From the NCBI GenBank assembly GCA_022710975.1, contig JAKLGA010000003.1, forward strand, positions 62,001-126,000: a stretch of DNA of 64,000 nt. The letters run 5' to 3'. Positions 45,031-61,770 of the stretch are shown here, one piece after another; position 1 is the first letter of the stretch, and each line of letters begins with the position of its first letter. The DNA is from Myxococcota bacterium (lineage in GTDB: Bacteria; Myxococcota; B64-G9). The translations under genes were made by a program, and so were the position numbers. The notes under the pieces were generated by a model. The model was not told the DNA's origin. It was given only the letters and a program-made list of their open reading frames with translations, and searched no databases.

Positions 45031-48000
45031 GCCGCACCGCCCCGGGGCGCTGCGGCCTCGGCCACGAACCAGGTCTCCTCACGACCCGGCGCGCTCCGCT
45101 CCTCGAGCGTCACCCGCAGCCCGGCCCGCTCGAGCGCCGCGCCGAGCTCGGCCGCAGAACGGAAGTGGGGCCGGCGCCGCCCGAGGCGGAGCCGCACCGT
45201 CTCCAGGGCCCGCTCCCAGGCGAAGCGGCCCTGGCCGGGCACGGTCACCCGCAGCACCACCCGCCCGCCCGGCGCGAGCCGCGCCTGCACCCCGGCCAGC
45301 GTCTCGTCCAGGGCCCCGTCCTCCAGGTGGTGGAGCATGTCCAGCAGCAGCACCGCGTCGTAGGGACCCGGGGCGGAAGACAGCCCGGGCGCGGCGGCGC
45401 ACACCACCTCGCCCCGCTCCCCGACCACCAGCCCCGCCACGCGCGCCCGCTCCGGATCGGGCTCCAGGCCCGTCAGCCGCAGCCCCGGCCGGCAGGCCAG
45501 CAGGAAGGCGGCCGGCACGCCCAGCCCGCAGCCCACGTCCAGCACCCGCCCGGCCGGCCCGACCAGCGCGTCCAGCCTGGCGAACAGCGGATCGAACGCC
45601 AGCTTGAAGCGGGCGAAGAAGCGCGGGTGGGGCTCGAGCCAGCGGTAGCGCGCGCGGACCAGCGCCAGGTGGGCGCGGCTGCCCGCCGGCAGCGCCTGGC
45701 CGGGGAAGGGCCGCCGCCGGAGCAGCCGGGCGAGCAGCGGCGGCAGCAGCACGAAGGTCCCCAGGAGCGCCCCGGCCATGCCCAGCGAGGTGGTGATGCC
45801 CGCGCTGCGCGGCACGGCGTGCTCCGAGGGCACCATCGACAGCATGCCCACCAGGGTCGAGCCGCCGGCCAGCAGCACCATGACCCGGATCGGCCCGAGC
45901 GACGGGTGGTGCTCGTCGAGCGCGCGCTGCGCGCCCTTCAGGTAGAAGACCGCGTAGTCCACCCCCACCCCCAGCACCACCGCGAGCAGCAAAAGCCCGG
46001 GGATGTCGAGCGGGCGGCCGAGCAGCCGCAGCGTCCCCAGCGTGGCGGCGAAGGTGAACAGCGTCGGCAGCAGGGCCACCAGGCAGAGCAGCCCGTCGGC
46101 CAGCACCAGGAGGACCAGCAGGCTGATGGCCGCGCCCATCAGCCACAGCATCTTCAGGTACGCCTCCCCGATGCGCGCGGACAGCCGGCGGGTGAACAGC
46201 CCGGCGTCGAACACGGCGGCGCCCCGGGCGATGAGCGCGCCGGCGAAGACCTCGGCCTGGTAGCCCGCGGCCGGCTGCGCCTGCCCGGCCCACACCCAGC
46301 CGCCCCCGGCGGCGCGCTCCACCCCCAGCAGCGGGGCCACCGCCGGGGACAGCGCGGGCGGCGCCGCCCCGTCCACGGGCGCCTCGAGGGCGGCCAGGAA
46401 GGGCGCGAAAGCGTCCGGGGCGAAGCCCAGCTCGGCCTCGGCCCCGGCCAGGGCCTCCGCCAGCGCGGCCCGCCGGGCCGGGGTGAAGAAGTCCCGCCAG
46501 GCCTGGCGCTGGGCGCGCGCGCGCGCCGTGCCCGGCAACAGCTCGCCCGGGGTCAGGCCGCCCCGCACCCGGCCCGCGGCGCGCTCCGCCGCCAGCCCCT
46601 CGGCCAGCCCGTCCGTCGCCGCCCGCAGCGCCTCCAGCTCGGGCGCCTCGGCCAGCAGGTGGACGCTCGCGCCCAGGTCGCCCCAGGCCGCCTTGACCCG
46701 GCCCTCGGCCGCGAGGGTCTCCGGCCGCACCGTGTTCATGGCCGCGAGGTTCGCGTCCACCCGGGGCAACCCGCCGAGCAGCAGCCCCGCCCCGGCGAGC
46801 AGCAGCAGGCCGAAGGCCAGGAAACCGCGGCCGGTGGTCGCGCGAGCGAGCCAGCGCTCGACCGGCAGGAGGCTCCCGCGACGCGCCGGCCCGAGCCGGG
46901 GGAACAGCAGCGGGAAGACCAGGTGCACGAACAGGAAGGAGAACAGGGCGCCCAGGGAGGCGAACAGGCCCATCTGGGCCAGCATCTCGAAGCCGCTGAG
47001 GCCGAGCGCCAGGAAGGCGCCCACGGTGGTCAGCATGGCCGACAGGCTGGGCGCCCACAGCTCCCGGGCCACGGCCCGGCCGGAGGTCTCGTGGTGACGG
47101 TCGAGGTGCAGCAGGAAGGCCACGCTGCAGTCGACGGTGATGGAGATGAGCGCCCCGCCGAAGCCCAGCGCCAGAGCCGAGATGGACGGCCGCAGGAAGG
47201 AGTAGGCGAGCAGCGCCAGCGAGGCGCCGGCCACCGAGGGCAGCAGGCCCAGCAGCCCGAGCAGCGGCCGCGGGAAGCACAGCAGCAGCAGCAGCGCGAT
47301 GCCCAGGGTCGCCAGGCCCACGCCGCGCTCGGTGTCGTGGCGCACGATGCGCTCGTTGTCCAGCGCCGCGCGGAAAGAGCCCACGGCGTCGAGCTCCACC
47401 GCCGGGCCCGGCCCCAGGGCCTCGGCCAGCTCGCCCGGCAGGCGCTCGAGCCGCTCGGCGATGCGCCGCGCCAGCTCGGTGTCGGACCCGCGGCCGGCCG
47501 GCTCGGCCAGCACCAGCGCGTGCCTCCCCTCGACGTCCAGCAGCGCGCCCCCCTGCAGCCGCGCCCCGGCCGCCGGGCGGGCCGCGGCCAGGCGGGCCAG
47601 CACCAGCTCCCGCAGCCGGAGCGGATCGCGTGCCAGGAGCTCGGCCTGGCCCAGCCCGGACAGCTCGGACAGCTCCTCCAGCGCGCCGCCCAGGGCCGCG
47701 CGCACCGCCTGCGGCTCGAGCCGCGGCGCCACCTCGGCCAGGAGCTCGGCCCGGTCGAACAGGGCGGGCAGGTTCCGCGAGACCTCGTCCAGCAGCTCCG
47801 GGTAGGCCCCGGCCGCCTGCCCGAGCCCCACCCGGGTGAAGAGCCCGCTCTGCCCCAGGCGCTCCTCGACCAGCCGGGCGGCCTGGACCAGCCGCGCGGG
47901 GGCGGCCGGGGCCGCGCCGGCCGCGAGGTGCAGATCGAGCACCACCCGGTCGAGGGCCGGGTGGCGATCCACCACCCGCGCGGCCGCCTCGAGCACGGGA

Positions 48001-48137
48001 TCCTCGCCCGGCAGCGAGCGGGACAGATCCGTGTCCACCCGCAGGCGCCCGAGCCCCGCCCAGAAGGCGGCCGGCACGGCCACCGCCACCGCCAGGGCCA
48101 CCAGCGCCCGGCGCAGGCCCTCGCCCCGCGGCCTCAT
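45027..48137 (-). CDS. MMPL/RND exporter fused to a SAM-dependent methyltransferase
   Basis: This is a 1036-aa protein. Residues 1-800 are an MMPL-type RND exporter: a first helix, a large periplasmic loop, a cluster of six helices (LATLGIALLLLLCFPRPLL onward) with GGALISITVDCSVAFLLHL, then a second loop and a second helix cluster with GVGVDYAVFYLKGAQ. Residues about 830-1036 are a class I methyltransferase with motif I VLDVGCGLGVPAAFL (about 865-880), acidic LEPDP and LLLDMLHHLEDG. Exporter and methyltransferase are separate neighbours in known aryl-polyene loci; here they share one chain with no stop or frameshift between. Likely moves the finished or lipid-bound product across the inner membrane. 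ATG 48137 overlaps GT2's stop (ATGA). Confidence 0.88.
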   Translation of the reverse strand: MRPRGEGLRRALVALAVAVAVPAAFWAGLGRLRVDTDLSRSLPGEDPVLEAAARVVDRHPALDRVVLDLHLAAGAAPAAPARLVQAARLVEERLGQSGLFTRVGLGQAAGAYPELLDEVSRNLPALFDRAELLAEVAPRLEPQAVRAALGGALEELSELSGLGQAELLARDPLRLRELVLARLAAARPAAGARLQGGALLDVEGRHALVLAEPAGRGSDTELARRIAERLERLPGELAEALGPGPAVELDAVGSFRAALDNERIVRHDTERGVGLATLGIALLLLLCFPRPLLGLLGLLPSVAGASLALLAYSFLRPSISALALGFGGALISITVDCSVAFLLHLDRHHETSGRAVARELWAPSLSAMLTTVGAFLALGLSGFEMLAQMGLFASLGALFSFLFVHLVFPLLFPRLGPARRGSLLPVERWLARATTGRGFLAFGLLLLAGAGLLLGGLPRVDANLAAMNTVRPETLAAEGRVKAAWGDLGASVHLLAEAPELEALRAATDGLAEGLAAERAAGRVRGGLTPGELLPGTARARAQRQAWRDFFTPARRAALAEALAGAEAELGFAPDAFAPFLAALEAPVDGAAPPALSPAVAPLLGVERAAGGGWVWAGQAQPAAGYQAEVFAGALIARGAAVFDAGLFTRRLSARIGEAYLKMLWLMGAAISLLVLLVLADGLLCLVALLPTLFTFAATLGTLRLLGRPLDIPGLLLLAVVLGVGVDYAVFYLKGAQRALDEHHPSLGPIRVMVLLAGGSTLVGMLSMVPSEHAVPRSAGITTSLGMAGALLGTFVLLPPLLARLLRRRPFPGQALPAGSRAHLALVRARYRWLEPHPRFFARFKLAFDPLFARLDALVGPAGRVLDVGCGLGVPAAFLLACRPGLRLTGLEPDPERARVAGLVVGERGEVVCAAAPGLSSAPGPYDAVLLLDMLHHLEDGALDETLAGVQARLAPGGRVVLRVTVPGQGRFAWERALETVRLRLGRRRPHFRSAAELGAALERAGLRVTLEERSAPGREETWFVAEAAAPRGGAA

Positions 48138-48901
48138 CCGTCCCCCGCAGGGCGCGCCGCCGGGGGGGGCGCGGGCAGCCAGCGGGCGCGCCGCGCGCGC
48201 GGCACGAACAGGCGGGTGAAGATGAGGCGCATGAAGGTGCCCGCGTTGCGCCAGAAGTCGGTCCAGGGGCGGAAGTGGGACACGCGCCCGCCGGGCGGGG
48301 AGTACACCACGCCCACCTCGTGCTCCTCCACGGGCAGGCCCTTCCAGCGGGCCAGGACCACGATCTCCACCTCCCACTGGAAGCGCCGGGCGCGGGAGCC
48401 GAGCCGCAGGACCTCGGGCAGCGGGTACAGGCGGTAGCCACTCTGGGTGTCCGCGAGCGGCGGCCCGCCCGAGGCCCACACCCAGAAGTTGGAGAACTTG
48501 CGCCCGAAGCGGCTGGTCCAGGGGACGCTCTCGCCGGTCATGCCGCGCCGGCGGCCCACCAGGATCCGGCGCGGGCCCGCGGCCGCGGCCCGCATCAACC
48601 CCGCCGCGTCGGCCGGATCGTGCTGCCCGTCGGCGTCCAGGCACACGGCGTAGTCGGCCACGCCGACGGCCGCCGCCAGGCCGGTCCGCAGGGCCGCGCC
48701 CTTGCCGAGGTTGCGCGCGTGCCTGAGCACCGTCACGCCCGCCAGGGAGTCCACCACCGCGCGGGACTCGGCGCCCGAGCCGTCGTCCACCACGAACACG
48801 GGCAGCCCGTAGGCGCGCGCACCCGCCACCACGCCGGGCAGGCTGCGCGGGTGGTCGAACACCGGGATGACGAAGGCGAAGCGGGGGGCGGCGGCGGCCA
48901 T
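48134..48901 (-). CDS. Family 2 glycosyltransferase
   Basis: This is a 255-aa GT-A fold enzyme: FAFVIPVFDHPRSL opening, VVDDGSGAES nucleotide site, ARNLGKGAALRTGL, the DxD motif in CLDADGQHDP, DTQSGYRLYP and the RFQWEVEIVVLARW acceptor helix. These features place it with dolichyl-phosphate-mannose-synthase-like GT2 enzymes encoded in aryl-polyene clusters. There is no membrane anchor beyond a possible C-terminal amphipathic helix. ATG 48901 follows GGGGGGAGGAG. It is followed by the MMPL fusion with ATGA overlap. Confidence 0.88.
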   Translation of the reverse strand: MAAAAPRFAFVIPVFDHPRSLPGVVAGARAYGLPVFVVDDGSGAESRAVVDSLAGVTVLRHARNLGKGAALRTGLAAAVGVADYAVCLDADGQHDPADAAGLMRAAAAGPRRILVGRRRGMTGESVPWTSRFGRKFSNFWVWASGGPPLADTQSGYRLYPLPEVLRLGSRARRFQWEVEIVVLARWKGLPVEEHEVGVVYSPPGGRVSHFRPWTDFWRNAGTFMRLIFTRLFVPRARRARWLPAPPPAARPAGDG

Positions 48902-48915
48902 CGGCTCCTCCCCCC

Positions 48916-50649
48916 TCAGCGGGTCGGGCGCGCCCGCAGGGGCAGCCAGGCCACGCCCCAGGTGCCCGGGCCGGTGTGCGAGCCGGTGGTGAGCGACAGG
49001 GGCTGCGGGAACAGCTCGCAGCCGGGCAGCGCCGCGCGGAGCTCCGGGAGGAGCTCACCCTCCACCCAGGCCTGGTTGTCGGTGTACTCGACCATGATCC
49101 ACAGCGGCCCGTCGGCCTGGGCCGCGGCCAGGAGCCGCTCCCGGGCGAAGCGCCGCTGATCCTCGCGCGCGCGCAGCACGGCCAGCTTGCGCGCGCCGTC
49201 GGGCCGCGGGCTGACCACCGGCTTCATGTGCAGCAGGTCGCCGAAGAAGGCCGAGGTGCGCCCCAGCCGCCCACCGGCGGCCAGGAACTTGAGCTGGTCG
49301 AGGAACAGGAGCTCCTCGGCCTTGTCCACGGCCCAGCGCGCGTGCTCCTCCACCGACTCGGGGGAGTCGCCGGCCGCCGCCCGCCGGCCGGTGGACAGCA
49401 CGGCCAGCCCCAGCCGGCCCGAGGCCGAGCCCGAGTCGAGCACGCGCATGCGGCCCTCGGGGTCCGCCTCGCGCCGCCAGTCGCGGGCCACCTGGAAGTT
49501 GCCGGTGAACACCGAGCCCACACACACGTACAGCACCCGCGGGTGCAGCCCGAGCGCCTTCTGGTAGCACAGGTGGCGCTCGCGCAGGGAGGCCTGGGAG
49601 GTGCTCACCCGCTCCCCGCGGCGCATGGCGGCGTACAGCTCCTCCTGGCGCACGTGCGTCTCGGGCAGCGCCCGCCGGCCGAGCAGCACGTAGGAGTCGA
49701 GCAGGCCCAGCCCCAGCGCGCGGGCGTCCGCCCGGGTGACCGAGCCGGCCGCGTCGCACAGGACGTGCACGCGCGGGCCGGCGGCCGCGGGCCGCGCGAA
49801 GCCGTCGGCCTGGACCGACATGTCGTCGCTGTCGAAGTGCACGAGCGCCCCCAGGCCGGCCAGGCGCGCCCGGGTGGCCTCGCGGTCGTCGGTGTGCAGG
49901 TGCAGCTTGAGGTAGCCGCCCTGGGAGATGGCCACCACCGACTCGCCCAGCTCCCCGGCCCGCGCGGCCAGCCCGTCCGCGTCGTCGGCCCGGAGCACCG
50001 CGTCCACGCAGAAGCCGGCCTCGCGCTCGCCGGCGAAGCCCTCCGACAGCCGCAGCCCCTCGTGGAAACGCGCGGTCACCGGGCGGCCACCCTCGGCCCG
50101 GCCCGCCAGCGCGTGGAAGAAGCCGTCGAAGAAGATGAACATGCCCAGCGCGCCCGCGTCGACCACGCCGGCCGCGCGCAGCTTGGGCAGGGTCTCGCGC
50201 GTCGCGCGCACCGCCGCCTCCAGCCGATCGAGGACCGGCCCCAGCAGCGCCTCGTCCTCCGCGGCCGGGGCGGCCGCCAGCGCCTCGTCCAGCGCGTCGA
50301 ACAGGCTGAGCATGGTCCCCGCGCGGGGCTCTGCCACCGCCTGCCAGGCCAGCGCGCGCCCGCGCCGGGCCGCGGCCCCGAGCTCGCCGCGCCCGAGGGA
50401 GTCCTCCAGCCAGCCGGAGAAGAAGCGCGCGGCGATGTTGCCCGAGTTGCCCCGCGCGGACATCAGCAAGTCCTCGCGCAGCGCCGGGGTGGCCGCGTCG
50501 AGCCGCCGGAGCGGCAGCAGGCTGATCAGCAGATTCCGGCCGGTGTCCCCGTCGGCCACGGGGAACACGTTGATCTCGTCCAGGAGATCCGCCCAGGCGG
50601 CCAGGCGTTCGCTGCCGGCCGCCAGGGCCGCGCGCACCTCGGCGTGCAT
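48916..50649 (-). CDS. Fatty acid kinase fusion: FakA (DhaL-type kinase) plus DegV/FakB
   Basis: This is a 577-aa protein. Residues 1-190 are a DhaL (DAK2) kinase domain with the metal and ATP motifs NVFPVADGDTGRN and SARGNSGN. Residues about 195-275 match the middle domain of FakA (AISQGGYLKLHLHTDD). Residues about 290-577 are a DegV/FakB fatty-acid-binding domain with VSTSQAS, LGRTSAFFGDLLHMKPVV and the GSHTGPGTWG end. In Firmicutes FakA phosphorylates fatty acids bound to separate FakB; here both share a chain, so it probably makes acyl-phosphates. ATG 50649 has GGGAGGG seven bases upstream. It sits between the lyase and the glycosyltransferase, 17 and 14 bp away. Confidence 0.88.
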   Translation of the reverse strand: MHAEVRAALAAGSERLAAWADLLDEINVFPVADGDTGRNLLISLLPLRRLDAATPALREDLLMSARGNSGNIAARFFSGWLEDSLGRGELGAAARRGRALAWQAVAEPRAGTMLSLFDALDEALAAAPAAEDEALLGPVLDRLEAAVRATRETLPKLRAAGVVDAGALGMFIFFDGFFHALAGRAEGGRPVTARFHEGLRLSEGFAGEREAGFCVDAVLRADDADGLAARAGELGESVVAISQGGYLKLHLHTDDREATRARLAGLGALVHFDSDDMSVQADGFARPAAAGPRVHVLCDAAGSVTRADARALGLGLLDSYVLLGRRALPETHVRQEELYAAMRRGERVSTSQASLRERHLCYQKALGLHPRVLYVCVGSVFTGNFQVARDWRREADPEGRMRVLDSGSASGRLGLAVLSTGRRAAAGDSPESVEEHARWAVDKAEELLFLDQLKFLAAGGRLGRTSAFFGDLLHMKPVVSPRPDGARKLAVLRAREDQRRFARERLLAAAQADGPLWIMVEYTDNQAWVEGELLPELRAALPGCELFPQPLSLTTGSHTGPGTWGVAWLPLRARPTR

Positions 50650-50666: not shown

Positions 50667-52220
50667 TCAGCCGGCCTCGACTCCGGTGCGCACATCGCCC
50701 GCCAGGATGTCCGCGGCCAGCCGCGCGAGCTCCGCGTCCAGGGGGCGATCGGCCGTCAGGGCCGGCGAGCGCAGGCGCACGGCCGCCAGCGCCTCGGCCA
50801 GGCGCGGCCGGGCCGCGAGCCCACCGCGCAGCTCGGCCGCCTGGCACGCGCCGAGCAGCTGGCAGGCCGCCACCCCGGCCGCCAGGCGGGCGACGCCGAG
50901 CGCGTCCCGGGCGGCGATCGTGCCCATGCTGACCTTGTCCTGGTTGTGGGACTCGGTGGAACGCGAGAAGGAGGCGGCCGGCATGGTCCCGCGCAGCGCC
51001 TCGGCGGTCAGCGCCGAGGCGGTGATCTGCACCGCCTTCAGCCCGTGGTGGGCCGGGCCGACCTCCCTGGGCACCAGGTTGGCCGGCAGGCCGCGGCTGA
51101 AGCGCGCGTCGACCAGCAGCGCGAGCTGGCGATCGGCCAGATCCGCGGCCGAGGCCAGGGCGGCCTTGAGCGCATCCATGGCGAAGGCCACGTGCCCGCC
51201 GTAGAAGTTGCCGCCGGTCAGCACCTCGCCGCTGTCCGGATCGAGCAGCGGGTTGTCGCTCACCCCGTTGGCCTCCACCTCGATCCAGGCGTGCACCCAG
51301 GCGAGGGCGTCGGCCAGGACGCCCAGCACGTGCGGGCTGCAGCGGCAGGAGTAGGGATCCTGCAGGCTCTCGGGCCGGTTGCTCTCCTCGACCGGGCCGC
51401 GCGCCTCGAGCAGCGCCCGGAGCCGGGCGGCCACCTCGGCCTGGCCCGGGTGGGGCTTGGCCGCGAACAGGCCCGGGTGGAAGTGGCGGGCGTGGCCGGC
51501 CAGCGCGTGCACCGCCAGCGCGGTGCCGGCGGTGAAGGCCTGGAGCAGCGCCTCCGCCTGCCGCACGGCCAGCACGGCCAGGCCGGTCATGACCGAGGTG
51601 CCGTTGACCAGCGCCAGCGGCTCCTTGGGCTGCAGCCGGTAGGGCGCCAGCCCCTCCGCCGCCAGGGCCTCGGCCGCGGGCACCCGCCGCCCCCGGTGGA
51701 AGGCCTCGCGCTCGCCCTGCAGGCAGGCGGCCAGGTAGGACAGCGGGGTGAGATCGCCCGAGGCGCCCACCGAGCCCTGGCAGGGGATGACCGGGGTGAT
51801 CCCGTGGTTGAGCAGCGCCACCAGCGCGTCCAGCAGCTCGCCGCTCACCCCCGAGAACCCCCGGGCCAGGCTGAGCAGCCGGCACAGCACCACCGCGCGG
51901 GCCTCCTCCACTCCCAGCGGCTCGCCCAGGCCCGCCCCGTGGTAGCGCACCAGGTTCTGCCCCAGGGCCTCGGTCCGCTCGGCGTCGAGCTGGTTACCGC
52001 AGGACTGGCCGTAACCGGTGGTCACCCCGTAGACCGGCTCGCCCCGGGCGATGGCCGCCTGGAGGGTGGCCCGGGAGCGCTCCAGGCGCGCGCGGAAGGC
52101 CGGGGCCGCGCTCAACTCCACCCGCGCTCCGCGCCGCGCCACGTCGTCGATTTGTCGAACGGAAACAGGCCCGTCGCCCACGGTGAGCGCCGGCGGGGGG
52201 GTTGGCTTGGGCAGGACCAC
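50667..52220 (-). CDS. MIO-type aromatic amino acid ammonia-lyase (HAL/TAL family)
   Basis: This is a 517-aa protein of normal family length. The MIO prosthetic group forms from Ala153-Ser154-Gly155 in GSVGASGDLTPLSY. The catalytic Tyr region reads PVYGVTTGYG; the substrate-selectivity pair is Tyr93-His94 in LVRYHGAG; QDPYSCRCSPHV and NPLLDP are also conserved. It deaminates His, Tyr or Phe to the acrylate. In flexirubin and related loci, the tyrosine-specific form supplies 4-coumarate as starter; the linkage here favours that role but specificity cannot be read with certainty. GTG 52220 follows GGAGGTGGAG. Confidence 0.88.
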   Translation of the reverse strand: MVLPKPTPPPALTVGDGPVSVRQIDDVARRGARVELSAAPAFRARLERSRATLQAAIARGEPVYGVTTGYGQSCGNQLDAERTEALGQNLVRYHGAGLGEPLGVEEARAVVLCRLLSLARGFSGVSGELLDALVALLNHGITPVIPCQGSVGASGDLTPLSYLAACLQGEREAFHRGRRVPAAEALAAEGLAPYRLQPKEPLALVNGTSVMTGLAVLAVRQAEALLQAFTAGTALAVHALAGHARHFHPGLFAAKPHPGQAEVAARLRALLEARGPVEESNRPESLQDPYSCRCSPHVLGVLADALAWVHAWIEVEANGVSDNPLLDPDSGEVLTGGNFYGGHVAFAMDALKAALASAADLADRQLALLVDARFSRGLPANLVPREVGPAHHGLKAVQITASALTAEALRGTMPAASFSRSTESHNQDKVSMGTIAARDALGVARLAAGVAACQLLGACQAAELRGGLAARPRLAEALAAVRLRSPALTADRPLDAELARLAADILAGDVRTGVEAG

Positions 52221-52306: not shown

Positions 52307-53500
52307 TCAGGCGCTCGCGCTGGGCGGGCGCAGAGCCTCCACCCCGCTGAGCAGCAGGCTGACCAGATCGCCCTGGCGGCTGGTCTGGGTCTTGGCGAAC
52401 ACCCGCTTGAGGTGGGTGCGGGCCGTGTTGGTGGTCACCCCGAGCCGCTTGGCGGACTCCTCCAGGCTCAGCCCGGAGACCAGCAGGGAGGCCAGCCGGG
52501 ACTCCGCCCGGGTCAGGCCGTAGAGCTGCTGCAGGGCCTCCTCGGTGGCGGCCGGGCGGTGGTCCGGATCGCGCACGAACACGGCCGCGAGCACGCGCGG
52601 ATCCTCGAGGGCCTGGCGCTCCAGGCGCAGCGGCGTCACCAGCAGGGCCAGGGCGCGGCCGCCGGAGCTGCTGGTCACGTTCAGCGTCCCGCCGCAGCCC
52701 GTGGCCGAGGCCCCGCAGCGGGAGGCCTCCGCGATCAGCCGGCCGAGCTCGGCCTGGGCCTCGGCCTCGGCCGCGCGCAGCAGGCCGTCCGCCCCGAGCT
52801 GCAGCCCTTCGTGCCGCCCGAGCAGCTCGGTCGCCGAGCGGTTGACCGCGATGGCCTTGCCCAGGGCGTCCACCAGGATCACCCCGATGGGCAGGTGATC
52901 GATGGAGTTCTCCAACGCCACCGACAGGTTCAGGGCCCCGGCCAGCAGGCGGTACAGCTCCATGGCCCGACGCAGGTGCGGGGCCAGGGCCTGGAACAGG
53001 GCCACGTCCTCGTCGTCGTAGTCGCCGGCCGCCGGGCTGCGGACCATGGTCAGGTTGAGCACCCAGGAGCCGCGCACCTCGAACACCATGTTCATGAAGT
53101 CGTAGAAGCCGCGCGGGGCCAGGAACTCGCGGTAGAAGGCGGAGGCCTCGAAGTCCGGAGCGGCCACCACCATGCGCCGGGTGACCACGACCCCTTCGGT
53201 CACGAAGCGATCGCGGTTCGAGTTGACCAGCGTGCGGGCCGAGGGGTGCAGCCGGGCGTAGTCGATCTGGACGTCGGCGTGCATGGGCGAGCCGAACACG
53301 ACCTCGCCTTCGCCCGAGTCGTAGTTCGCCCGGCGCACCACGGCGCCCTCGCTCCGGGTCAACGCCCGCAGCTTCTCCAGCACGGGACCCCAGTTGGCGG
53401 TGCCCTCGGCCACCGTGTAGAGGGCCTGGATCAGCTCGAGCACCTGAGCTTGCGAGTACCTGGCCACGCCGGACACCTCAGCCCCCACCATGGGCTCCAT
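52307..53500 (-). CDS. LuxR-family transcriptional regulator, likely cluster regulator
   Basis: This is a 397-aa protein whose last 65 residues are a LuxR helix-turn-helix (LTRAESRLASLLVSGLSLEESAKRLGVTTNTARTHLKRVF). The N-terminal 200 residues are GAF-like (LIQALYTVAEGTANWGPVLEKL, DDEDVALFQALAPHL), with a PAS-like segment (about 200-265, NSIDHLPIGVILVDALG). This is the layout of the TIGR-type LuxR regulators without autoinducer domain. ATG 53500 is preferred; 53491 and 53536 are possible, as no start has a clear ribosome site. It is embedded among the biosynthetic genes, in the same direction. Confidence 0.82.
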   Translation of the reverse strand: MEPMVGAEVSGVARYSQAQVLELIQALYTVAEGTANWGPVLEKLRALTRSEGAVVRRANYDSGEGEVVFGSPMHADVQIDYARLHPSARTLVNSNRDRFVTEGVVVTRRMVVAAPDFEASAFYREFLAPRGFYDFMNMVFEVRGSWVLNLTMVRSPAAGDYDDEDVALFQALAPHLRRAMELYRLLAGALNLSVALENSIDHLPIGVILVDALGKAIAVNRSATELLGRHEGLQLGADGLLRAAEAEAQAELGRLIAEASRCGASATGCGGTLNVTSSSGGRALALLVTPLRLERQALEDPRVLAAVFVRDPDHRPAATEEALQQLYGLTRAESRLASLLVSGLSLEESAKRLGVTTNTARTHLKRVFAKTQTSRQGDLVSLLLSGVEALRPPSASA

Positions 53501-53564: not shown

Positions 53565-55085
53565 TCACACGCCCGGTCCGCGGCCTCCGGCGGAGCCCGG
53601 CGGGCCGGGTTTGCGCGCCACCAGCTCCAGCATCAGCCCGCCGAAGCCGGGCAGCCCGGGGACCCTCAACCCGAAGGCGTCGAGCCGCTCGAGCTCCAGG
53701 CCGGCGGCCCGCGCCGCGCGGCCGAGCTGGCCCCGGCCCCGGGCGTGCAGCCACACCCCCTGGCGCATGGCGTTGCCGAGCTGGGTGAACAGGCGAGGCA
53801 GCGAGCGCTGGGCCGTGGTCAGGTGCAGCCGGCCGCCCGGGCCGAGCAGCCCGGCCAGGCGGGCCAGGGCGGCCTGGAGATCAGGCAGGTACTCGAGCGC
53901 CGAGTAGGCCGCGACCAGATCGAAGGGGCCCGCGAGCTCCGCGCCGTGGAGGCCGGCGCACAGGGTGGTGAGGCGGCCCGCGCCCGCCGCGCGGGCCTTC
54001 GCCTCGAGCTCGGCCAGCATGGCGGGCGACGGATCCAGCGCCACCACCTCGCGCGCCCGGCGCAGGAGCTCCAGGGTGAAGCGGCCGGTGCCCGCGCCCA
54101 CCTCGAGCACCCGCGCCTGGCCCGTGGGCAGCAGCCCCGGCAGGCGGGCGAGCACCGCCGCCCGCTCGGCGCGGCGCAGCCCCCGCTGCCCGCGGGCCGC
54201 CTGCTCGGCGTCGTAGCTCGGGGCCAGCGCGTCGTAGAAGCGCCGCACCGGGCCCGCGCCCGCGGCGGCCAGCGGCTCGTGCACCGGCCGGCCCAGCACC
54301 TCGGACAGCGCGGCCACCCGCAACCCGCGCGCCGCCAGGCCGTCGAGCAGCCGCTCCACCTCCGCCAGCCAGAGCTCCAGCCCGCGCCCACCGGGCGGCG
54401 CCCGGTCGTGCAGCGCCAGCACGTCGCCCGGCCGCACCCCGGCCAGCAGCCTGGCGGAGAGCCCCCGCAGCCGGCGGTTGCCGAAGTCGAGCGCCCGCCG
54501 GCTGGCGACCGCGCAGGCGAGGTCGGCCTCGAGCAGCACGCGCCACAGGCGCGGATTGACCACCCAGGCCGGCGGCCGGAAGAGCGCCGGGCGCACCCCC
54601 AGGGGCGCGAGCGCCGCCTGGCAGCCCTGGAGGGAGCGGCCGAGGCGCGCCCGGCCGCGCAGCATGAGCAGGGGGTCGTGCTCGTCGCTGTGGTTGCCGA
54701 GCTCGTGCCCGCCGTCCAGCAGGGCGCGCGCGAGCGCGGGGTGGGCCCGCACCCGCGCGCCCACCACGAAGAAGGCCGCCCGCGCCCCGCGCCGGGCGAG
54801 CAGCTCGAGCAGCCGCGGCGTGGTGAGCGGATCGGGGCCGTCGTCGAAGGTGAGCGCCACCGCGTCCGGGCTGTGCCCGCGGTCCAGGACCGGCAGCAGC
54901 AGCCGCCAGCGGGGGAAGAAGGGCGCCAGGCCGGAGAGCAGCAGCAGCAGCCCCAGCGGCAGGGCCGCCGTCCAGGCCGGCGCCAGCCACCCGAGCAGGG
55001 CCGCGGCCTGGAGCAGCCCCAGGCCGAGCAGGTCGAGCGGCGCGAGCGGGCACAGGCGCGGCCCGTCCCCCCGCGCCGGGCTCAC
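53565..55085 (-). CDS. NodB polysaccharide deacetylase fused to SAM methyltransferase
   Basis: This is a 506-aa protein with two N-terminal hydrophobic stretches (about 7-55). A NodB domain follows, with ALTFDDGPD near residue 80, the metal-binding GHELGNHSDEHD near 132, and RPPAWVVNP. A class I methyltransferase occupies residues about 270-500 (VLEVGAGTGRFTLELL, VALDPSPAMLAEL, FDLVAAYSALEYLPDLQ). GTG 55085 gives a GTGA overlap with the radical-SAM gene; ATG 55103 would overlap by 22 bp. Such a deacetylase could act on a sugar attached to the product. The combination in one chain is unusual. Confidence 0.83.
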   Translation of the reverse strand: MSPARGDGPRLCPLAPLDLLGLGLLQAAALLGWLAPAWTAALPLGLLLLLSGLAPFFPRWRLLLPVLDRGHSPDAVALTFDDGPDPLTTPRLLELLARRGARAAFFVVGARVRAHPALARALLDGGHELGNHSDEHDPLLMLRGRARLGRSLQGCQAALAPLGVRPALFRPPAWVVNPRLWRVLLEADLACAVASRRALDFGNRRLRGLSARLLAGVRPGDVLALHDRAPPGGRGLELWLAEVERLLDGLAARGLRVAALSEVLGRPVHEPLAAAGAGPVRRFYDALAPSYDAEQAARGQRGLRRAERAAVLARLPGLLPTGQARVLEVGAGTGRFTLELLRRAREVVALDPSPAMLAELEAKARAAGAGRLTTLCAGLHGAELAGPFDLVAAYSALEYLPDLQAALARLAGLLGPGGRLHLTTAQRSLPRLFTQLGNAMRQGVWLHARGRGQLGRAARAAGLELERLDAFGLRVPGLPGFGGLMLELVARKPGPPGSAGGRGPGV

Positions 55086-56455
55086 AGGAGCAGCTTGTCC
55101 CATTGCGGCCCCACCCGACCGCGGCGGTGCATGCGCGCCAGCATGGTCTGGAAACGCTCGCCGCCCGAGCCGACCACCCAGTGGAGGCGGCCCGCGGCCC
55201 GAGCCTGGACGCGGGCGATGATGTCCGCGCTCGGCGGGCCGGCGCGGTAGTAGGTCGGCTCGAGCAGCTCGTCCTCGGGCCGGATCTGCCCCTCCTGTTG
55301 GGCCAGGCGCCACAGGCCGGTGCCGGGGTAGATGCGCACGCCGCAGAAGAAGAACATCGCCGCCCGCTCGAGCTGCTCGGCCGCCTCCAGCGCCGCCCCG
55401 AGGGTGGCCTCGGTCTCCCCGGGGCCGCCCAGCATGAAGTAGTGGGCCACGGGTAGTCCCGCCGCGCGGGCCGCGCGGTGGGCGGCGAACACGTCCGCCG
55501 CCCGGAAGCTCTTGTGGTAGCGGGCCAGCACCGCGTCGCTCAGGTGATCGGTGCCGAACTCGACGTGCGCCAGGCCGCAGGCCCGCAGGTGCGCGTAGAA
55601 CCCGTCCGGGGGGGCCAGGGGCGCGAAGAAGGCGCCCCAGGGCAGGCTCAGCCCGGCCGCGCGCATGGCCTCGGCCACCGCCAGGCTGTGGGCCGGGTCG
55701 GCGTTGAACACCGAGTCTGCCAGGAACAGGTAGCGCGCCCCGGCGTCCTGCAGGGCCCGGGCGGCGCGGCCGACCTCCTCGGGCGGGAAGGCGCGCAGCC
55801 GGCCGCCCTCGATCAGCGGGTAGGTGCAGTAGGCGCAGTGGAAGGGGCAGCCGCGCTGGGTCTGGAGGTTCAGCATGCCGCCCCGCGCGAGGTACGGCCC
55901 GCACTCCTCGGGCGTCCGCGGCAGGCGGCGGGGGTGACCCCCGGCCCAGGGCGGCGGCCGGTGGAAGGGGCGCCCGGGCAGCACCACCCCGGGCAGGGCG
56001 GCCAGCGCGTCCGCGCCCGCGCCTGCCTCCAGGGCCTGCAGCACGGCGCCGAAGCGCTCCCCCTCGCCGGCCAGCCCCAGGTCGGCCGCGCCGAGCGCGA
56101 GCAGCCGCTCGGGGAAGAGCGTGTAGCCAGCCCCGCCCAGCACCACCCACGGCCCGCCCGCCTCGCGCGGGCCGGCGGCCGCGCGCACGGCGGCGACCGC
56201 GCGCCGGCAGTCGTCGACGAACGAGCGCGCCGCGCTCACGTCGGTGTTGTCCACGTTGCGCAGCGACAGCCCGACCACCTGCGGGTCGAAGCCGCGCACG
56301 GCCGCGCCCAGGCCGTCCTCCCCGGGCTGCTCCAGGAGGTCCAGCAGGCGCACCTCGTGGCGAGGGTCGAGCGCGCCGGCCACGTGGTCCAGGCCGAGCG
56401 GGTAGACCGGGAAGGGCTCGGCCAGCCGGTTCAGCGAGGCCAGCAGGACCCGCAT
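55082..56455 (-). CDS. B12-binding-domain radical SAM enzyme
   Basis: This is a 457-aa protein: an N-terminal cobalamin-binding-like Rossmann domain (about 1-140, ending LVLGGAGYTLFPERLL-like) followed by a radical SAM barrel with the cluster motif CPFHCAYC near residue 203 (CxxxCxxC) and the GGE-like segment LGGPGETEATL. The canonical DxHxxG cobalamin ligand is not obvious. Members commonly methylate unreactive carbons or rearrange lipids; related proteins are encoded beside fatty-acid-synthase genes in lipid clusters such as those for ladderanes. Likely tailors the polyketide or lipid chain. ATG 56455 is 10 bp after the KS-CLF stop. Confidence 0.85.
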   Translation of the reverse strand: MRVLLASLNRLAEPFPVYPLGLDHVAGALDPRHEVRLLDLLEQPGEDGLGAAVRGFDPQVVGLSLRNVDNTDVSAARSFVDDCRRAVAAVRAAAGPREAGGPWVVLGGAGYTLFPERLLALGAADLGLAGEGERFGAVLQALEAGAGADALAALPGVVLPGRPFHRPPPWAGGHPRRLPRTPEECGPYLARGGMLNLQTQRGCPFHCAYCTYPLIEGGRLRAFPPEEVGRAARALQDAGARYLFLADSVFNADPAHSLAVAEAMRAAGLSLPWGAFFAPLAPPDGFYAHLRACGLAHVEFGTDHLSDAVLARYHKSFRAADVFAAHRAARAAGLPVAHYFMLGGPGETEATLGAALEAAEQLERAAMFFFCGVRIYPGTGLWRLAQQEGQIRPEDELLEPTYYRAGPPSADIIARVQARAAGRLHWVVGSGGERFQTMLARMHRRGRVGPQWDKLLL

Positions 56456-56465
56456 GGCCGCCCCC

Positions 56466-58730
56466 TCATGGGCTGAAGTCCACCGCGGTCAGGTGGGCGC
56501 CCAGCCCCACCAGCAGCACCCCGCGGCCGCCGAGGGCGACCGGGCCGCGGCCCGCGCCGAGCCCCGCCGGCAGCTCGCCCCCGGCCACCAGCCGGGCGGC
56601 CAGCACGGCCGCGACCGCGCTCGCGGAGGCGAATTCGCCCAGCAGCGGGCGCACATCGACCACCGGCCCGGGGAAGGCCGCCGCCTGGACGAACGCGCGC
56701 CAGCGCTCGCCGCCCTGGCGGTGGCCCGCCGGCAGATCGACCAGCAGCGCGCCGTAACGCTCGCCGAGCGCCGCGGGGCCGCCCAGCTCCGCGACCAGGG
56801 CGGCCAGCCCGGCCGCCACGTCCTCGGGCCGCTCGGGCGCGAGCCGGCAGGCCCGCAGGCGGACGCTCGGGCCCGCCTGGCCCGGGGCGCAATCGGCCTC
56901 CGGGCGCAGCCACAGCGCGCCGCCGCCGTCGGCCGGTTCGCCCCCGCAGGGGTCGAACAGCGGGCTCAGCACCGGGTGGTGCTCGTCTGCGCCCAGCACC
57001 AGGAGCTCCCGGGCGCGCGGGGTCTCGCGCTCCTCGACGTCCAGCGCCAGGAGCTCGGCCATCAGCAGGGCCGCCTCGAAGGAGCTGTCCCCCACGCTGG
57101 CGGTCAGGTTGGCCCCGCGCGCGCCGAGCCGCATGGCGAGCTGCCCGGCCGGGGCGTTGTGCACCGAGCCGACGAAGTCGATCGGGCTGGCCAGCCGCTG
57201 CGGATCGGAGAACAGCTCGTGCAGGAAGTCGTGCGTCTCCGACAGCGGGCCGAAGCCGGTGCCGAAGAAGATCCGCCTGGGCCCGGCCTCCGCGTCGGGG
57301 CACAGCGCCTGGCCGAGCGCGAGCACGAGGCGCGGCAGGCGCTTCTGGCGCCGGCAGACGCGCGGCGGCAGCTCGCGCACCACGTCCGCGTCGGGCAGCA
57401 GGCCGGCGCAGCGCTGCCCGCCCGCGAAGCGCTCCCAGGTCTCCCGGGTGTGCCCGGCGCCGGTCAGGCAGGCGCTGCCCACCACCCGCAGGCAGGCCGT
57501 GGGCCCGGGCGGGGCCTTCAGCCGGCCGCCGGGCCCGCTCAGGTGGACCGCCTGGCCGGCCGTGTTGCGCACCGCCCCGAGCACCAGGGCCGCGTTGTTG
57601 CCGCCGAAGCCGAAGGAGTTGGACATCACCGCGTGCAGCTCGGCCCGGCGCGGCTCGCGGAGCGGCGTGAGGCCCAGCTCGGGATCCGGCTCCGTGAGCC
57701 CGACGTTGGCGGGCAGCAGATCGCGGGTGAGCGCCGCCAGGCACACCACCGCCTCGACCGCCCCGGCGGCCGCCAGGGGGTGGCCGAACACGCCCTTGGT
57801 CGAGGACACGGGCGGCAGCCGGTCGTCGAACAGGTCGCGCACCGCCAGGGCCTCGGCCGCGTCGTTGTCGCGGGTGCCGGTGCCGTGCAGGTTCACGTAG
57901 TCGATGCGCCGCGGGCCGAGCCCGGCGTCGGACAGCGCGGCCTGCATGGCCAGGAACGCCCCGAGCCCCTCGGGGTGCGGGGCGGTCGGGTGGTGCGCGT
58001 CGCAGGACAGGCCGCCGCCCAGCAGCTCGGCGATCACCCCCGGGTGGGGCGTCTCGGCCGCGTGCAGCAGCAGCATGGCGGCGCCCTCGGACACGCTCAT
58101 GCCAGCCCGCTCGCGGTCGAGCGGCCGGGTACCGCGCGGATCGACCAGCTTCAGCAGGCTGAAGCCGAAGTAGGTCAGGCGGCAGAGCGCGTCGGCGCCG
58201 CCCGCCAGCACCCGCTGGCAGCGCCCCGCGCGGATCAGCTCGAGCGCCACCTTGAGGGCCACGCCGGCCGAGGAGCAGGCCGTCGAGACCGTGAGCGCGG
58301 GCCCGCGGCAGCCCACGGCCCGCGCCACCCGCTCGGCCACCGTGCCGCTGCCGTGCAGCCGGTAGCGCTGCGGGTCCTTCACCCCGGCCAGCAGCAGCTC
58401 CTCGGACAGCGGCATGCCGCCCGTGGTCACCCCGAGCACGACCGCGTCCGGCGGCAGCTCCGCCCCGGCCATGGCCTGCTCGGCGGCGGCCAGCGCCAGG
58501 CGGTGGGTGCGAGGCCAGTCGGCGGGTCCGGGCAGGGGCAGCTCCCGGGGCACCTGCCCGGCCGGGCGGGGCCCGCCCACGCCGGGCTCGAACAGCCACA
58601 GCGGCTCGAGCGGGCGGTGCTCCACGCTGCTCTCGAGCAGCGCGCGCACCTGGGCGTCGAGGCCCACGCCCGCCGGGGTGACCACGCCCAGGCCGGTGAT
58701 GAAGGCCCGGATGGAGGGGCCGCGGCTCAA
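56466..58730 (-). CDS. Fused ketosynthase and chain-length factor (KS-CLF)
   Basis: This is a 754-aa protein of two thiolase folds. Residues 1-395 are an active-looking FabF-type ketosynthase with the complete triad: Cys152 in STACSSAG, His282 in HGTGTRDND and His317 in FGHPLAAAG. Residues about 410-754 resemble the truncated chain-length-factor family of aryl-polyene synthases; the nucleophile position reads VGDSSFEA with Asp548 in place of Cys, so it cannot condense. In E. coli the equivalent pair ApeO-ApeC is a heterodimer of separate chains. TTG 58730 overlaps the ACP stop in TTGA. Confidence 0.87.
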   Translation of the reverse strand: MSRGPSIRAFITGLGVVTPAGVGLDAQVRALLESSVEHRPLEPLWLFEPGVGGPRPAGQVPRELPLPGPADWPRTHRLALAAAEQAMAGAELPPDAVVLGVTTGGMPLSEELLLAGVKDPQRYRLHGSGTVAERVARAVGCRGPALTVSTACSSAGVALKVALELIRAGRCQRVLAGGADALCRLTYFGFSLLKLVDPRGTRPLDRERAGMSVSEGAAMLLLHAAETPHPGVIAELLGGGLSCDAHHPTAPHPEGLGAFLAMQAALSDAGLGPRRIDYVNLHGTGTRDNDAAEALAVRDLFDDRLPPVSSTKGVFGHPLAAAGAVEAVVCLAALTRDLLPANVGLTEPDPELGLTPLREPRRAELHAVMSNSFGFGGNNAALVLGAVRNTAGQAVHLSGPGGRLKAPPGPTACLRVVGSACLTGAGHTRETWERFAGGQRCAGLLPDADVVRELPPRVCRRQKRLPRLVLALGQALCPDAEAGPRRIFFGTGFGPLSETHDFLHELFSDPQRLASPIDFVGSVHNAPAGQLAMRLGARGANLTASVGDSSFEAALLMAELLALDVEERETPRARELLVLGADEHHPVLSPLFDPCGGEPADGGGALWLRPEADCAPGQAGPSVRLRACRLAPERPEDVAAGLAALVAELGGPAALGERYGALLVDLPAGHRQGGERWRAFVQAAAFPGPVVDVRPLLGEFASASAVAAVLAARLVAGGELPAGLGAGRGPVALGGRGVLLVGLGAHLTAVDFSP

Positions 58731-58999
58731 CCCGGGGCCCCCGACGACCTGCGGTTCTCGGCGATGTAGTCGGCCAGGGAGGCGACCGAGGTCATCACCC
58801 TGCGGCCGAGCTCCTTGTTGTCGATGCGGATTCCGTAGTCCTTCTCGAGCATGACCACCAGCTCGAGCACGTCGATGGAGTCGAGCCCCAGCCCCTCGCC
58901 GAACAGGGGAGCGTCGTCCGGGATGCTGTCCGGATCCACGTCCCGGAGGTCCAGCGTCTCCACGATCCTGCGCTTCAGTTCCGCTCGCAGCTCGTCCAT
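58727..58999 (-). CDS. Acyl carrier protein
   Basis: This is a 90-aa, four-helix acidic protein with the phosphopantetheine site at Ser41 in LGLDSIDVLELVV. It opens MDELRAELKRRIVETL. Size and motif are typical for a type II ACP. It carries the growing chain between KS-CLF, ketoreductase and dehydratase. It is the first gene of the minus-strand operon, with TTGA coupling to KS-CLF. No second ACP is seen in the window, while many aryl-polyene loci have two. Confidence 0.92.
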   Translation of the reverse strand: MDELRAELKRRIVETLDLRDVDPDSIPDDAPLFGEGLGLDSIDVLELVVMLEKDYGIRIDNKELGRRVMTSVASLADYIAENRRSSGAPG

Positions 59000-59166: not shown

Positions 59167-59631
59167 GTGACCGTGAGCGCTCCCGAGGACGCCTCCATCG
59201 AAGGGCTGATCCCCCACCGCGGCCGCATGCGGCTGGTCGAGCGGCTGCTCTCGGTCACCGGGGACCGGGCCCGCATCGGCACCCGGGTGGGCGCGGACTG
59301 GCCGCTGTGCGGCCCGCAGGGCGTCCCGGCGATGGTGCTGGTGGAGGCCGTGGCCCAGGCGGCCGGCCTGTTGATGGGCCGGCGCAAGAGCCAGGAGCGC
59401 ATGGGCGGCCGGGGCTGGCTGGTGGGCGTCAAGTCGGCCAGCCTGGCCCGGGGCGCGATCCCGGTGGGCACGGCGCTGGAGATCGAGGTGGAGATCCTGC
59501 ACGAGGTGGACGTGTACGTCGTCTTCCGCGGCCGGGCCCGGGCCGGGGAGCACACCCTGGCGGAGGTCGAGATCCAGACCTTCCAGCCCGCGGAGATGGC
59601 CGCCTACATGGGCGAGGAGCGCGACACATGA
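59167..59631 (+). CDS. FabZ-like hotdog dehydratase
   Basis: This is a 154-aa single hotdog-fold protein with catalytic His17 in LIPHRGRMRLVERL and Glu60 in MVLVEAVAQAAG, the pair expected for 3-hydroxyacyl-ACP dehydratases of the FabZ and aryl-polyene type. It removes water from the 3-hydroxyacyl-ACP to give each conjugated double bond. GTG 59167 follows GAGGAGGA. FabG overlaps its stop in ATGA. Confidence 0.88.
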   Translation: MTVSAPEDASIEGLIPHRGRMRLVERLLSVTGDRARIGTRVGADWPLCGPQGVPAMVLVEAVAQAAGLLMGRRKSQERMGGRGWLVGVKSASLARGAIPVGTALEIEVEILHEVDVYVVFRGRARAGEHTLAEVEIQTFQPAEMAAYMGEERDT

Positions 59632-60377
59632 GCGACGTCAAGGGCACCCCCGACGGCCGTCCGCTGGCGGTGGTCACCGGCGGCAGCCGGGGCATCGGCC
59701 GGGCCACCTGCGTGGAGCTCGCCCGGGTCGGGTACTTCGTGGTGGTGAACTACAAGAGGCGTGAGGACGAGGCCGAGGCCACCCTGGAGTCCATGCGGGC
59801 CCTGGGCGCGCAGGGCGAGATCCTCGGCCTGGACGTGGGCGACCGGGCCGCGGCCTTCGCCAAGCTGGAGGCGCTCCAGGATCGGCTCGGGCCGGTGGCG
59901 GTGCTGGTCAACAACGCCGGCGTGACCGCGGACGGGCTGTTCCCCATGATGAGCGGGGACGCCTGGGACAAGGTCATGCGCACCACGCTGGACGGCTTCT
60001 TCAACGTCACCCGGCCGCTGCTCAAGGGCATGATGAAGCGCCGCCAGGGCAGCATCGTCAACGTGGCCTCGGTCTCGGCCCTGGTGGGCAACCGGGGCCA
60101 GGTGAACTACTCGGCGGCCAAGGCCGGCCTGGTGGGCGCGACCCGCTCGCTGGCGGCCGAGGTGGCCCGCCTGGGCATCCGGGTCAACGCCGTGGCGCCC
60201 GGGCTGATCGAGACCGACATGACCGCCAAGGTGCCGCGCGACCAGCTCAAGCAGCTCATCCCCATGAACCGCGTCGGGGCGCCGGAAGAGGTGGCCCGGG
60301 TGATCCGCTTCCTGTGCTCGGATGACGCCTCGTACGTGACCGGGCAGGTCCTCGGGGTGACCGGGGGCATGGTCTGA
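59628..60377 (+). CDS. fabG: 3-oxoacyl-ACP reductase, FabG-type
   Basis: This is a 249-aa classical short-chain dehydrogenase with cofactor motif TGGSRGIG (18-25), NNAG (95-98), and the catalytic Ser148, Tyr161 and Lys165 in NYSAAKAG. The ALGIR/APGLIETDM tail fits FabG. It reduces the beta-keto group of the ACP-bound chain with NADPH. ATG 59628 overlaps the dehydratase stop. It is likely dedicated to this locus rather than housekeeping fatty acid synthesis. Confidence 0.92.
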   Translation: MSDVKGTPDGRPLAVVTGGSRGIGRATCVELARVGYFVVVNYKRREDEAEATLESMRALGAQGEILGLDVGDRAAAFAKLEALQDRLGPVAVLVNNAGVTADGLFPMMSGDAWDKVMRTTLDGFFNVTRPLLKGMMKRRQGSIVNVASVSALVGNRGQVNYSAAKAGLVGATRSLAAEVARLGIRVNAVAPGLIETDMTAKVPRDQLKQLIPMNRVGAPEEVARVIRFLCSDDASYVTGQVLGVTGGMV

Positions 60378-60388
60378 GGAGGCGAGCG

Positions 60389-61039
60389 GTGCGCCGGATG
60401 CTCCACCTGCTCGCCGGCCTGCTGCTGCTGCTGGGCGCGCTGCCGGCGGCGGGCGCGGGCTGGACCGCGAGCCTGGACGAGGTGCGCCGGGCGAGCGCCC
60501 GGGTCAAGAGCGTCCAGGCGCGCTTCGTGCAGACCAAGGCCATGCGCCTGCTCACCAAGCCGCTGCGCTCGGAGGGGGTGTTCGCCTTCCAGGCGCCTGG
60601 CTCGGTGCGCTGGGAGTACGCCCTGCCGCTCAGGAGCGTGCTGCTGCTGTCCGGGGACCGCCTGCAGCGCTTCGCCTGGCGGGACGGGACCTGGCAGGCG
60701 GACGCGGCCGAGCGGCTGGAGGCCATGCGGGTGGTGGTCGAGGAGATGCAGGCCTGGCTGACCGGCCGCTTCGCCGACAGCCGGGCCTTCGCCCCGGAGC
60801 TGGTGCCGGCCCGGGCGGACGGCCCGGCGCGGGTGGTGCTCACCCCGCGCGAGCCGGGCCTGCGGAAGATCCTGCAGCGGGTCGAGCTGCGCCTGGGGGA
60901 GCGGCCCGGGCTGATCGAGCGCATCGAGATCGTCGAGGGGCCCGAGGCCACGACGACCATCGAGTTCCTGGACATCCGCCTGGACGAGCCCGTGCCCGCG
61001 GCCCGTTTCCAGCAGCCCGGCGAGGGTCCCGCGCCGTGA
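60389..61039 (+). CDS. LolA-like outer-membrane lipoprotein carrier
   Basis: This is a 216-aa periplasmic protein with a signal peptide (1-23, ending PAAGA). The open beta-barrel pattern (VQARFVQTKAMRLLTKPL, SEGVFAFQAPGSVRWEY, PLRSVLLLSGDRL) matches LolA and the LolA-like proteins of aryl-polyene loci. It would shuttle a lipid-linked product from the MMPL exporter to the outer membrane. GTG 60389 follows GAGGAGGCGAG. A downstream lipoprotein gene is GTGA-coupled. Confidence 0.85.
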   Translation: MRRMLHLLAGLLLLLGALPAAGAGWTASLDEVRRASARVKSVQARFVQTKAMRLLTKPLRSEGVFAFQAPGSVRWEYALPLRSVLLLSGDRLQRFAWRDGTWQADAAERLEAMRVVVEEMQAWLTGRFADSRAFAPELVPARADGPARVVLTPREPGLRKILQRVELRLGERPGLIERIEIVEGPEATTTIEFLDIRLDEPVPAARFQQPGEGPAP

Positions 61040-61770
61040 GCCGCCCGCTCGTCCTGGCCCTGGCCCTCGCCCCCGGCCTGCTCGCGCCCGCCTGCGCCCA
61101 CCTGCCCGAGCTCTACGAGTTGCCCGAGGCCCCCACGGCGGCCGGGCTCCAGCAGCGCTGCCACGAGGTGGGTCCGGCGGCCGCCTTCCGCGCGGTGCAC
61201 GCCATCGAGGCCCGCCTGCCGCTCGGCCAGGCGAGCGCCATGCTCGGGGTGAGCGCGGCGGACCCGCTGCGGGGGAGGCTGCGCGCGGCGCTGGTCAGCG
61301 CCGAGGGGCTGACGCTGTTCGAGGGGCTGCGCGGGGACGGAGGCCGGATCCGGGTCCTGCGCGCCGTGCCCCCGCTCGACGGGCCGGACTTCGGCCCCAT
61401 GCTGCTCGACGACGTGGCGCTGCTGCTGCTCGCCCCGCGCGGGCCGACCCTGCGCATGGGCCGCATGCGGTCGGGCGAGGGGGTCTGCCGCGCCCCGGTC
61501 CGCTCGGCGGTCTGGCCCGGCGGCGTCCTGGACGTGCTGCCCGAGGCCACGGACGGCGGGGCGGCGCTCAGGCTGTACGACGGGGACGAGTCCCTGCGGC
61601 GCGAGGTCCACCTGTCGGGCCGCACGCCGGCCGGGCTCTACCAGCGCATGCGCCTCGAGGCCTTCGGGCCGGGCGGCTACTCCCTGGAGCTCACCTTGCT
61701 GGAGAGCGAGCCCATGGACCCGGACGATCCCCTGTTCGAGGCGAACGAGCCCCCGGAGGAGCGACCATGA
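61036..61770 (+). CDS. Lipoprotein, possible outer-membrane acceptor (DUF3261-like)
   Basis: This is a 244-aa protein with lipobox LAPAC (Cys20). It is strand-rich with repeated hydrophobic ladders (LRAALVSAEGLTLFEGL, GPMLLDDVALLLLAP, GGYSLELTLLESE), the layout of LolB- or LppX-like lipid-binding lipoproteins. Aryl-polyene loci usually hold such a lipoprotein next to the LolA-like gene, and I infer a role as receiver at the outer membrane. GTG 61036 overlaps the LolA-like stop, and its own stop overlaps the next start in ATGA. Confidence 0.72.
   Translation: MSRPLVLALALAPGLLAPACAHLPELYELPEAPTAAGLQQRCHEVGPAAAFRAVHAIEARLPLGQASAMLGVSAADPLRGRLRAALVSAEGLTLFEGLRGDGGRIRVLRAVPPLDGPDFGPMLLDDVALLLLAPRGPTLRMGRMRSGEGVCRAPVRSAVWPGGVLDVLPEATDGGAALRLYDGDESLRREVHLSGRTPAGLYQRMRLEAFGPGGYSLELTLLESEPMDPDDPLFEANEPPEERP

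Follow-up and report, generated by a model that had tools for sequence, protein, structure and literature searches.

In the aryl-polyene systems studied so far, the ketosynthase (KS) and the chain-length factor (CLF) are separate proteins that form a heterodimer (PMC8358021), as the original prediction for the protein described here had stated. In AbApeC, the CLF of Acinetobacter, most of the second thiolase half is missing, and a conserved arginine pair, Arg30-Arg31, is thought to receive the acyl carrier protein (ACP) (PMC8358021). Kuste3605 and Kuste3606 are likewise encoded by two genes in Kuenenia (PMC4790861, Table 2), and the gene lists published for Kuenenia stuttgartiensis and Desulfotalea psychrophila include a deacetylase, a methyltransferase, radical SAM proteins, a CoA-ligase and FabF paralogues (PMC2649909, PMC4790861). 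A KS and a CLF in one chain are already a known architecture, of which PfaC from a PUFA synthase is a solved example. KS-CLF heterodimers are awkward to engineer, as their subunits need to be matched and co-expressed.

The locus analyzed here lies in a 64,000-nucleotide stretch of Myxococcota DNA, which we call the window. It contains a minus-strand frame of 754 codons that runs from TTG to its stop codon without interruption and encodes both activities in one polypeptide.

56466..58730, minus strand: fused KS-CLF protein of 754 aa, with a TTG start that overlaps the ACP stop
57564..58730, minus strand: KS domain, residues 1-389, with Cys152, His282, Lys312, His317 and gate Phe375
~57492..57563, minus strand: linker, residues ~390-413, with low model confidence at 391-408
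56469..57491, minus strand: CLF domain, residues 414-754, PF13723-type, with Asp548 in place of the cysteine and Glu699 at the His317 position

By its sequence, the first half is a complete FabF/ApeO-like ketosynthase that continues in frame into a CLF domain. Pfam matches cover residues 8-386 for the KS models PF00109 (E 5.8e-30) and PF02801 (E 1.7e-28), with a complete ketosynthase at 11-345, and residues 450-564 for the CLF-type model PF13723 (E 1.9e-9; 37.9 bits, cut-off 25). Pfam reports no further domains within the 754 aa. The top NCBIfam match for the KS half is PRK09185, followed by FabF, both below cut-off. Rival frames of 771 aa and 722 aa occupy the same GC-rich stretch, where long frames commonly arise by chance; the length of the frame is therefore no proof of fusion by itself, and we accept the fusion on the basis of homology in both halves together with conservation. 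A four-base overlap, TTGA, with the stop codon of the ACP gene supports the TTG start at 58730.

The ACP gene lies upstream of the fused gene. The genes from the radical SAM protein to the acyltransferase follow downstream, and those from the dehydratase to the lipoprotein are divergent.

58727..58999, minus strand: acyl carrier protein (PF00550; NCBIfam PRK09184 above cut-off)
55082..56455, minus strand: B12-binding radical SAM protein (TIGR04072, rSAM_ladder_B12)
53565..55085, minus strand: NodB-like polysaccharide deacetylase fused to a methyltransferase
52307..53491, minus strand: possible LuxR-type regulator (GerE below cut-off)
50667..52121, minus strand: aromatic amino acid ammonia-lyase, a possible supply of an aryl starter
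48916..50649, minus strand: DAK2-DegV fusion, a FakA/FakB-like fatty-acid kinase in one chain
48134..48901, minus strand: family 2 glycosyltransferase
45027..48137, minus strand: RND/MMPL-type exporter fused to a C-terminal methyltransferase
44086..45030, minus strand: LpxL-type lipid acyltransferase (PF03279)
59167..59631, plus strand: FabZ-like hotdog dehydratase (DH), below the NCBIfam cut-off
59628..60377, plus strand: FabG-like ketoreductase (KR)
60389..61039, plus strand: LolA-like carrier
61036..61770, plus strand: predicted lipoprotein of no family, conserved beside LolA in relatives

PRK09184 and PRK09185 are models that we take to be associated with aryl-polyene clusters. The radical SAM protein of the window scores 331.6 bits against TIGR04072, below the cut-off of 360, which is passed by ten out of ten orthologues encoded beside the fusion. 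A RelA/SpoT synthetase-domain protein at 42479-44089 adjoins the cluster. The DAK2-DegV fusion stands beside KS-CLF in 13 of the 57 loci recovered by the search described below, and the full-length MMPL-methyltransferase form is also found in relative G002.

A second part of the cluster is located 13.6 kb beyond the window.

C23:139602-148716 (L022:7602-16716): second part, with an AMP-ligase, a thioesterase, two intact KS, two radical SAM proteins and another ACP
C23:141674-143188 (L022:9674-11188): PS-DH and ACPS fusion (polyketide-dehydratase-like and 4'-phosphopantetheinyl transferase), conserved in relatives
C23:143684-148716: radical SAM pair with additional ACPs and FabF paralogues, retained alongside the fusion in relatives

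In relatives G002 and G006 the two parts are interleaved in a single cluster, which shows that they form one unit. The most conserved members are the radical SAM pair of the second part, with median identities of 75% and 67% across phyla. The ACP, KR, DH, LolA, lipoprotein and radical SAM genes are also conserved around the fusion in relatives.

The protein is likely to be a single-chain elongating ketosynthase, in which an intact KS and a CLF without catalytic residues build a polyene on the ACP of the upstream gene. The KS-CLF would condense malonyl units onto the chain on this ACP, with the wall of the CLF setting chain length. Since the cluster has a KR and a DH and the region examined shows no enoyl reductase, the product would be a polyene, which the radical SAM and methyltransferase enzymes would then modify. 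Attachment to a lipid or sugar and export to the envelope may involve the products of the MMPL, LolA, acyltransferase and glycosyltransferase genes. The ammonia-lyase may provide an aromatic starter in the lineage of the window; its gene is present in only 1 of the 57 other loci, so that an aryl starter is not general. The fusion would fix a 1:1 stoichiometry and keep the KS from forming pairs with the cluster's other FabF-like proteins. One point against this explanation is that the cluster also has, beyond the window, a second KS pair that is catalytically intact, so that the main elongating KS could be either.

The radical SAM genes, apparently of ladderane type, indicate that this is not a plain aryl-polyene cluster. 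From its gene content, the setting appears to be an aryl-polyene-like cluster with ladderane-type radical SAM enzymes, resembling those proposed for ladderane and aryl-polyene lipids, and it holds gene kinds that match the clusters compared in PMC2649909. A more far-reaching idea, which we consider unlikely, is that Myxococcota, Desulfobacterota and Spirochaetota make a widespread family of lipids that has escaped recognition, with the one-chain KS-CLF as its committed polyene synthase and ladderane-type radical SAM enzymes to rearrange the polyenes. If true, the fused enzyme would serve as a tractable model for the ladderane pathway of anammox bacteria.

It is improbable that the chain made by the protein belongs to a ladderane-like polycyclic lipid and not to an aryl polyene, even though several observations point that way. 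The cluster has a B12 radical SAM gene of apparent ladderane type in addition to the two highly conserved radical SAM genes of its second part, and its AMP-ligase, deacetylase and methyltransferase match Kuenenia genes (PMC2649909, PMC4790861). The closest PDB relatives by sequence are two chains of entry 9s5h: the KS half matches chain B best (E 1e-57) and the CLF half chain C (E 5.7e-16). Eight residues have been published for Kuste3606 (Val, Asn, Tyr, Gly, Lys, Glu, Gln and Arg), and chain C has every one of them, from which we infer that 9s5h holds either the Kuste3605-Kuste3606 pair or a close orthologue from anammox bacteria. However, the KS tree does not support the orthology to Kuste3605/3606 that these matches suggest. 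9s5h_B groups with L016, whereas the neighbours of the fusion are unfused Myxococcota KS (L007 and L008; 96/91) and aryl-polyene-type KS. The ammonia-lyase and the APE-type ACP in the window also argue against a ladderane-like product, as does D. psychrophila, which has such clusters yet contains no ladderanes and has unusual polyunsaturated hydrocarbons instead (PMC2649909).

The residues expected of an active KS paired with an inactive partner are conserved across 46 orthologues of 31-55% identity. Cys152, His282, Lys312, His317 and gate Phe375 are invariant (46/46), so the complete KS of the original prediction, recognized by Cys152, His282 and His317, was correctly identified. The same is true of its claim that the second fold lacks the cysteine and has Asp548 in its place: none of the 46 sequences has a Cys at this nucleophile position, which is Asp in 37, Glu in two, Asn in two and another residue in five. 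A smaller alignment of eight sequences (A1), in which Asp548 appeared unconserved, was overturned by this larger one. At position 699 of the CLF, the equivalent of His317, 36 of the 46 have Glu. Arg460-Arg461 of the CLF are invariant and correspond to the ApeC arginines implicated in ACP binding, which we count in favour of the KS-CLF assignment. The same conserved arginines, together with the acidic residue (Asp or Glu) at the nucleophile position in 39 of the 46, could also be expected if the second domain acted mainly in ACP docking, or in priming as a malonyl-ACP decarboxylase, and not as a chain-length wall. We give this little probability, as fold and position match those of CLFs, and the loss of the KS histidine positions argues against decarboxylation.

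The AlphaFold2 model of the whole chain, calculated with the 46 sequences, has a pLDDT of 92.4 and a pTM of 0.95, compared to a pLDDT of 38.7 for a prediction without alignment. Values below 50 are restricted to residues 1-3 and most of 391-408, and secondary structure reaches the C terminus of the ~340-aa CLF domain. Both domains are packed together in this monomer model, and a fusion does fix the 1:1 stoichiometry that the original prediction had proposed. That prediction had also suggested a comparison of such a model with the ApeO-ApeC heterodimer; the closest structure is the KS-CLF didomain of PfaC (6riw), the top Foldseek match, with a TM score of 0.79 normalised to the query and both domains covered. 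9s5h is absent among the Foldseek matches listed. According to the model, KS and CLF of the same chain most likely pack against each other in the manner of a KS-CLF heterodimer, giving a one-chain pseudo-dimer.

Alternatively, the KS of one fused chain might pair with the CLF of a second chain in a domain-swapped dimer, or the linker might be cut after translation. Both are physically possible, since the linker is disordered in the model at 391-408. It measures 17-31 residues (~18) in most relatives, with outliers up to 75, and its sequence is not conserved. The model is a single-chain prediction, and a domain-swapped form is outside its reach. Nevertheless, the high pTM with both domains docked in a single chain and the full-length superposition on 6riw make either arrangement a poor prospect compared to the intact pseudo-dimer.

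Relatives of the fused protein were sought with the CLF half alone (alignment A2) in one genome per species of 84,980 species, a query that could equally recover unfused CLFs sharing its most conserved motif. Among the 57 loci obtained, all 50 full-length relatives carry KS and CLF in one frame. Six of the other seven run into a contig end; they are either fused as far as their sequence goes or too short for a call. The seventh, L081, is partial. The hosts, which include anaerobes and soil bacteria, belong to Desulfobacterota, Spirochaetota and Myxococcota. Most are metagenome assemblies, and four are isolates: Desulfatitalea alkaliphila, Desulfobacter vibrioformis, Desulfofustis glycolicus and Desulfogranum japonicum. 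Scans of whole genomes gave the same picture. A full-length, high-scoring CLF match was present in 8 of 195 Myxococcota genomes, always in a fused frame, and a full-length match in 15 of 297 Desulfobacterota genomes, all 15 of them fused, in frames of 721-865 aa. Weaker matches to the N-terminal half of the CLF fell mostly in shorter frames, which are ordinary CLFs or FabFs encoded on their own. Within the family to which the window belongs, five of the eight other genomes have the fusion. To judge from these sequences, fusion is the rule for a family spanning three phyla and not an oddity of one genome.

The linker (~57492-57563) falls inside 57450-57620, a region that had been flagged earlier for a possible assembly join. 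The same fusion in 50 of 50 full-length relatives, isolates included, indicates that it is genuine and for practical purposes excludes such a join. A sequencing or assembly error that erased a stop and a start between two adjacent genes is extremely improbable: the closest unfused relatives (G015/L029 and G032) do have adjacent KS and CLF genes with a four-base overlap, where one frameshift could mimic a fusion, and the fused relatives are mostly metagenome assemblies, but the linker is continuous in all of the independent full-length relatives, and the AlphaFold model forms one compact particle.

In the KS tree, the core family of fusions forms one clade (100/100). Two further Myxococcota fusions, L093 and L094 (f15), group with an unfused gene, and a tree constrained to place them in the core is worse by 13 log-likelihood units (p-AU 0.046). 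For the phylum of the window, one common origin of all fusions is thus marginally rejected, and a second fusion event is likely, though with only marginal support from the tree. The CLF tree is too weak to decide between single and repeated origins. In the nearest unfused pair (G015), the four-base overlap between the KS and CLF genes means that one frameshift would yield a fusion. On the contig of L076, the minus-strand frame L004:1465-3948 joins ACP, KS and CLF in 796 aa with no stop in between; this may be a local frameshift. An in-frame ACP would agree with the suggestion of the original prediction that the fusion may bring the ACP to a single complex, and in the window the ACP gene overlaps the fusion gene.

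Single-chain KS-CLF proteins also occur outside the core family, among them proteins encoded on plasmids of Streptomyces, Priestia, Lachnospira and Serratia.

L125:5653-8007 and L127:5644-8028: single-chain KS-CLF in plasmid records, annotated only as beta-ketoacyl-ACP synthase family protein
NC_014025.1:28361-30532: single-chain KS-CLF on a plasmid of Priestia megaterium QM B1551, with the same annotation only
NC_012780.1:228217-230433: single-chain KS-CLF on a plasmid of Lachnospira eligens, with the same annotation only
L126:5998-7890: KS with a short CLF, 630 aa, on a Serratia proteamaculans plasmid, with an overlapping ACP gene upstream and deoxysugar genes nearby
L033:6203-8170, minus strand: divergent Myxococcota KS-CLF fusion of 655 aa

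L033 and the plasmid-borne proteins are more distant than the core, and the KS of the Streptomyces, Serratia and L033 fusions branch elsewhere in the tree. The Streptomyces and Serratia proteins are probably products of separate fusion events. KS-CLF fusion is thus recurrent.

A natural one-chain KS-CLF of ~720-750 aa, present in three phyla and predicted with high confidence, offers a simple handle for expression, structure determination and chain-length engineering. As a marker, the fusion points cleanly to a widespread ladderane-like cluster in culturable anaerobes, and the four isolates are culturable hosts in which the product could be identified. To our knowledge, anammox bacteria have never been obtained in pure culture. 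We found no KS-CLF fusion described for aryl-polyene or ladderane clusters in the open literature, a search that left out most subscription papers and all preprints.

Overall, the original prediction stands in that the fusion is genuine, the KS intact and the CLF without its nucleophile; the fusion is not unprecedented, however, given PfaC and the Streptomyces, Priestia, Lachnospira and Serratia proteins. These four share with the window protein a KS and a CLF-like domain in one annotated gene within type II-like clusters, and the three genes read encode 630-794 aa, but their identity to it is only ~30-37%. PfaC has KS and CLF in one chain in the same relative arrangement. In contrast to the stand-alone window protein, it is part of a type I megasynthase, and its sequence identity is 16%.

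The ApeO-ApeC pair (6QSP, 7F28) resembles the fused protein in its FabF-like KS and PF13723-type CLF, in the conserved Arg-Arg pair of the CLF, and in an environment with a dedicated ACP of the PRK09184 kind, KR, DH and envelope-lipid export genes. It consists of two proteins where the window encodes a single chain, and ApeC is half-size, whereas the window CLF apparently keeps both thiolase halves, so that its pocket may differ. The Kuste3605-Kuste3606 pair, as seen through 9s5h, also includes an inactive second subunit, in which Glu occupies the His317 position, and belongs to a ladderane-candidate FASII cluster. It is encoded by two genes, and its KS is not the sister of the fusion in the tree.
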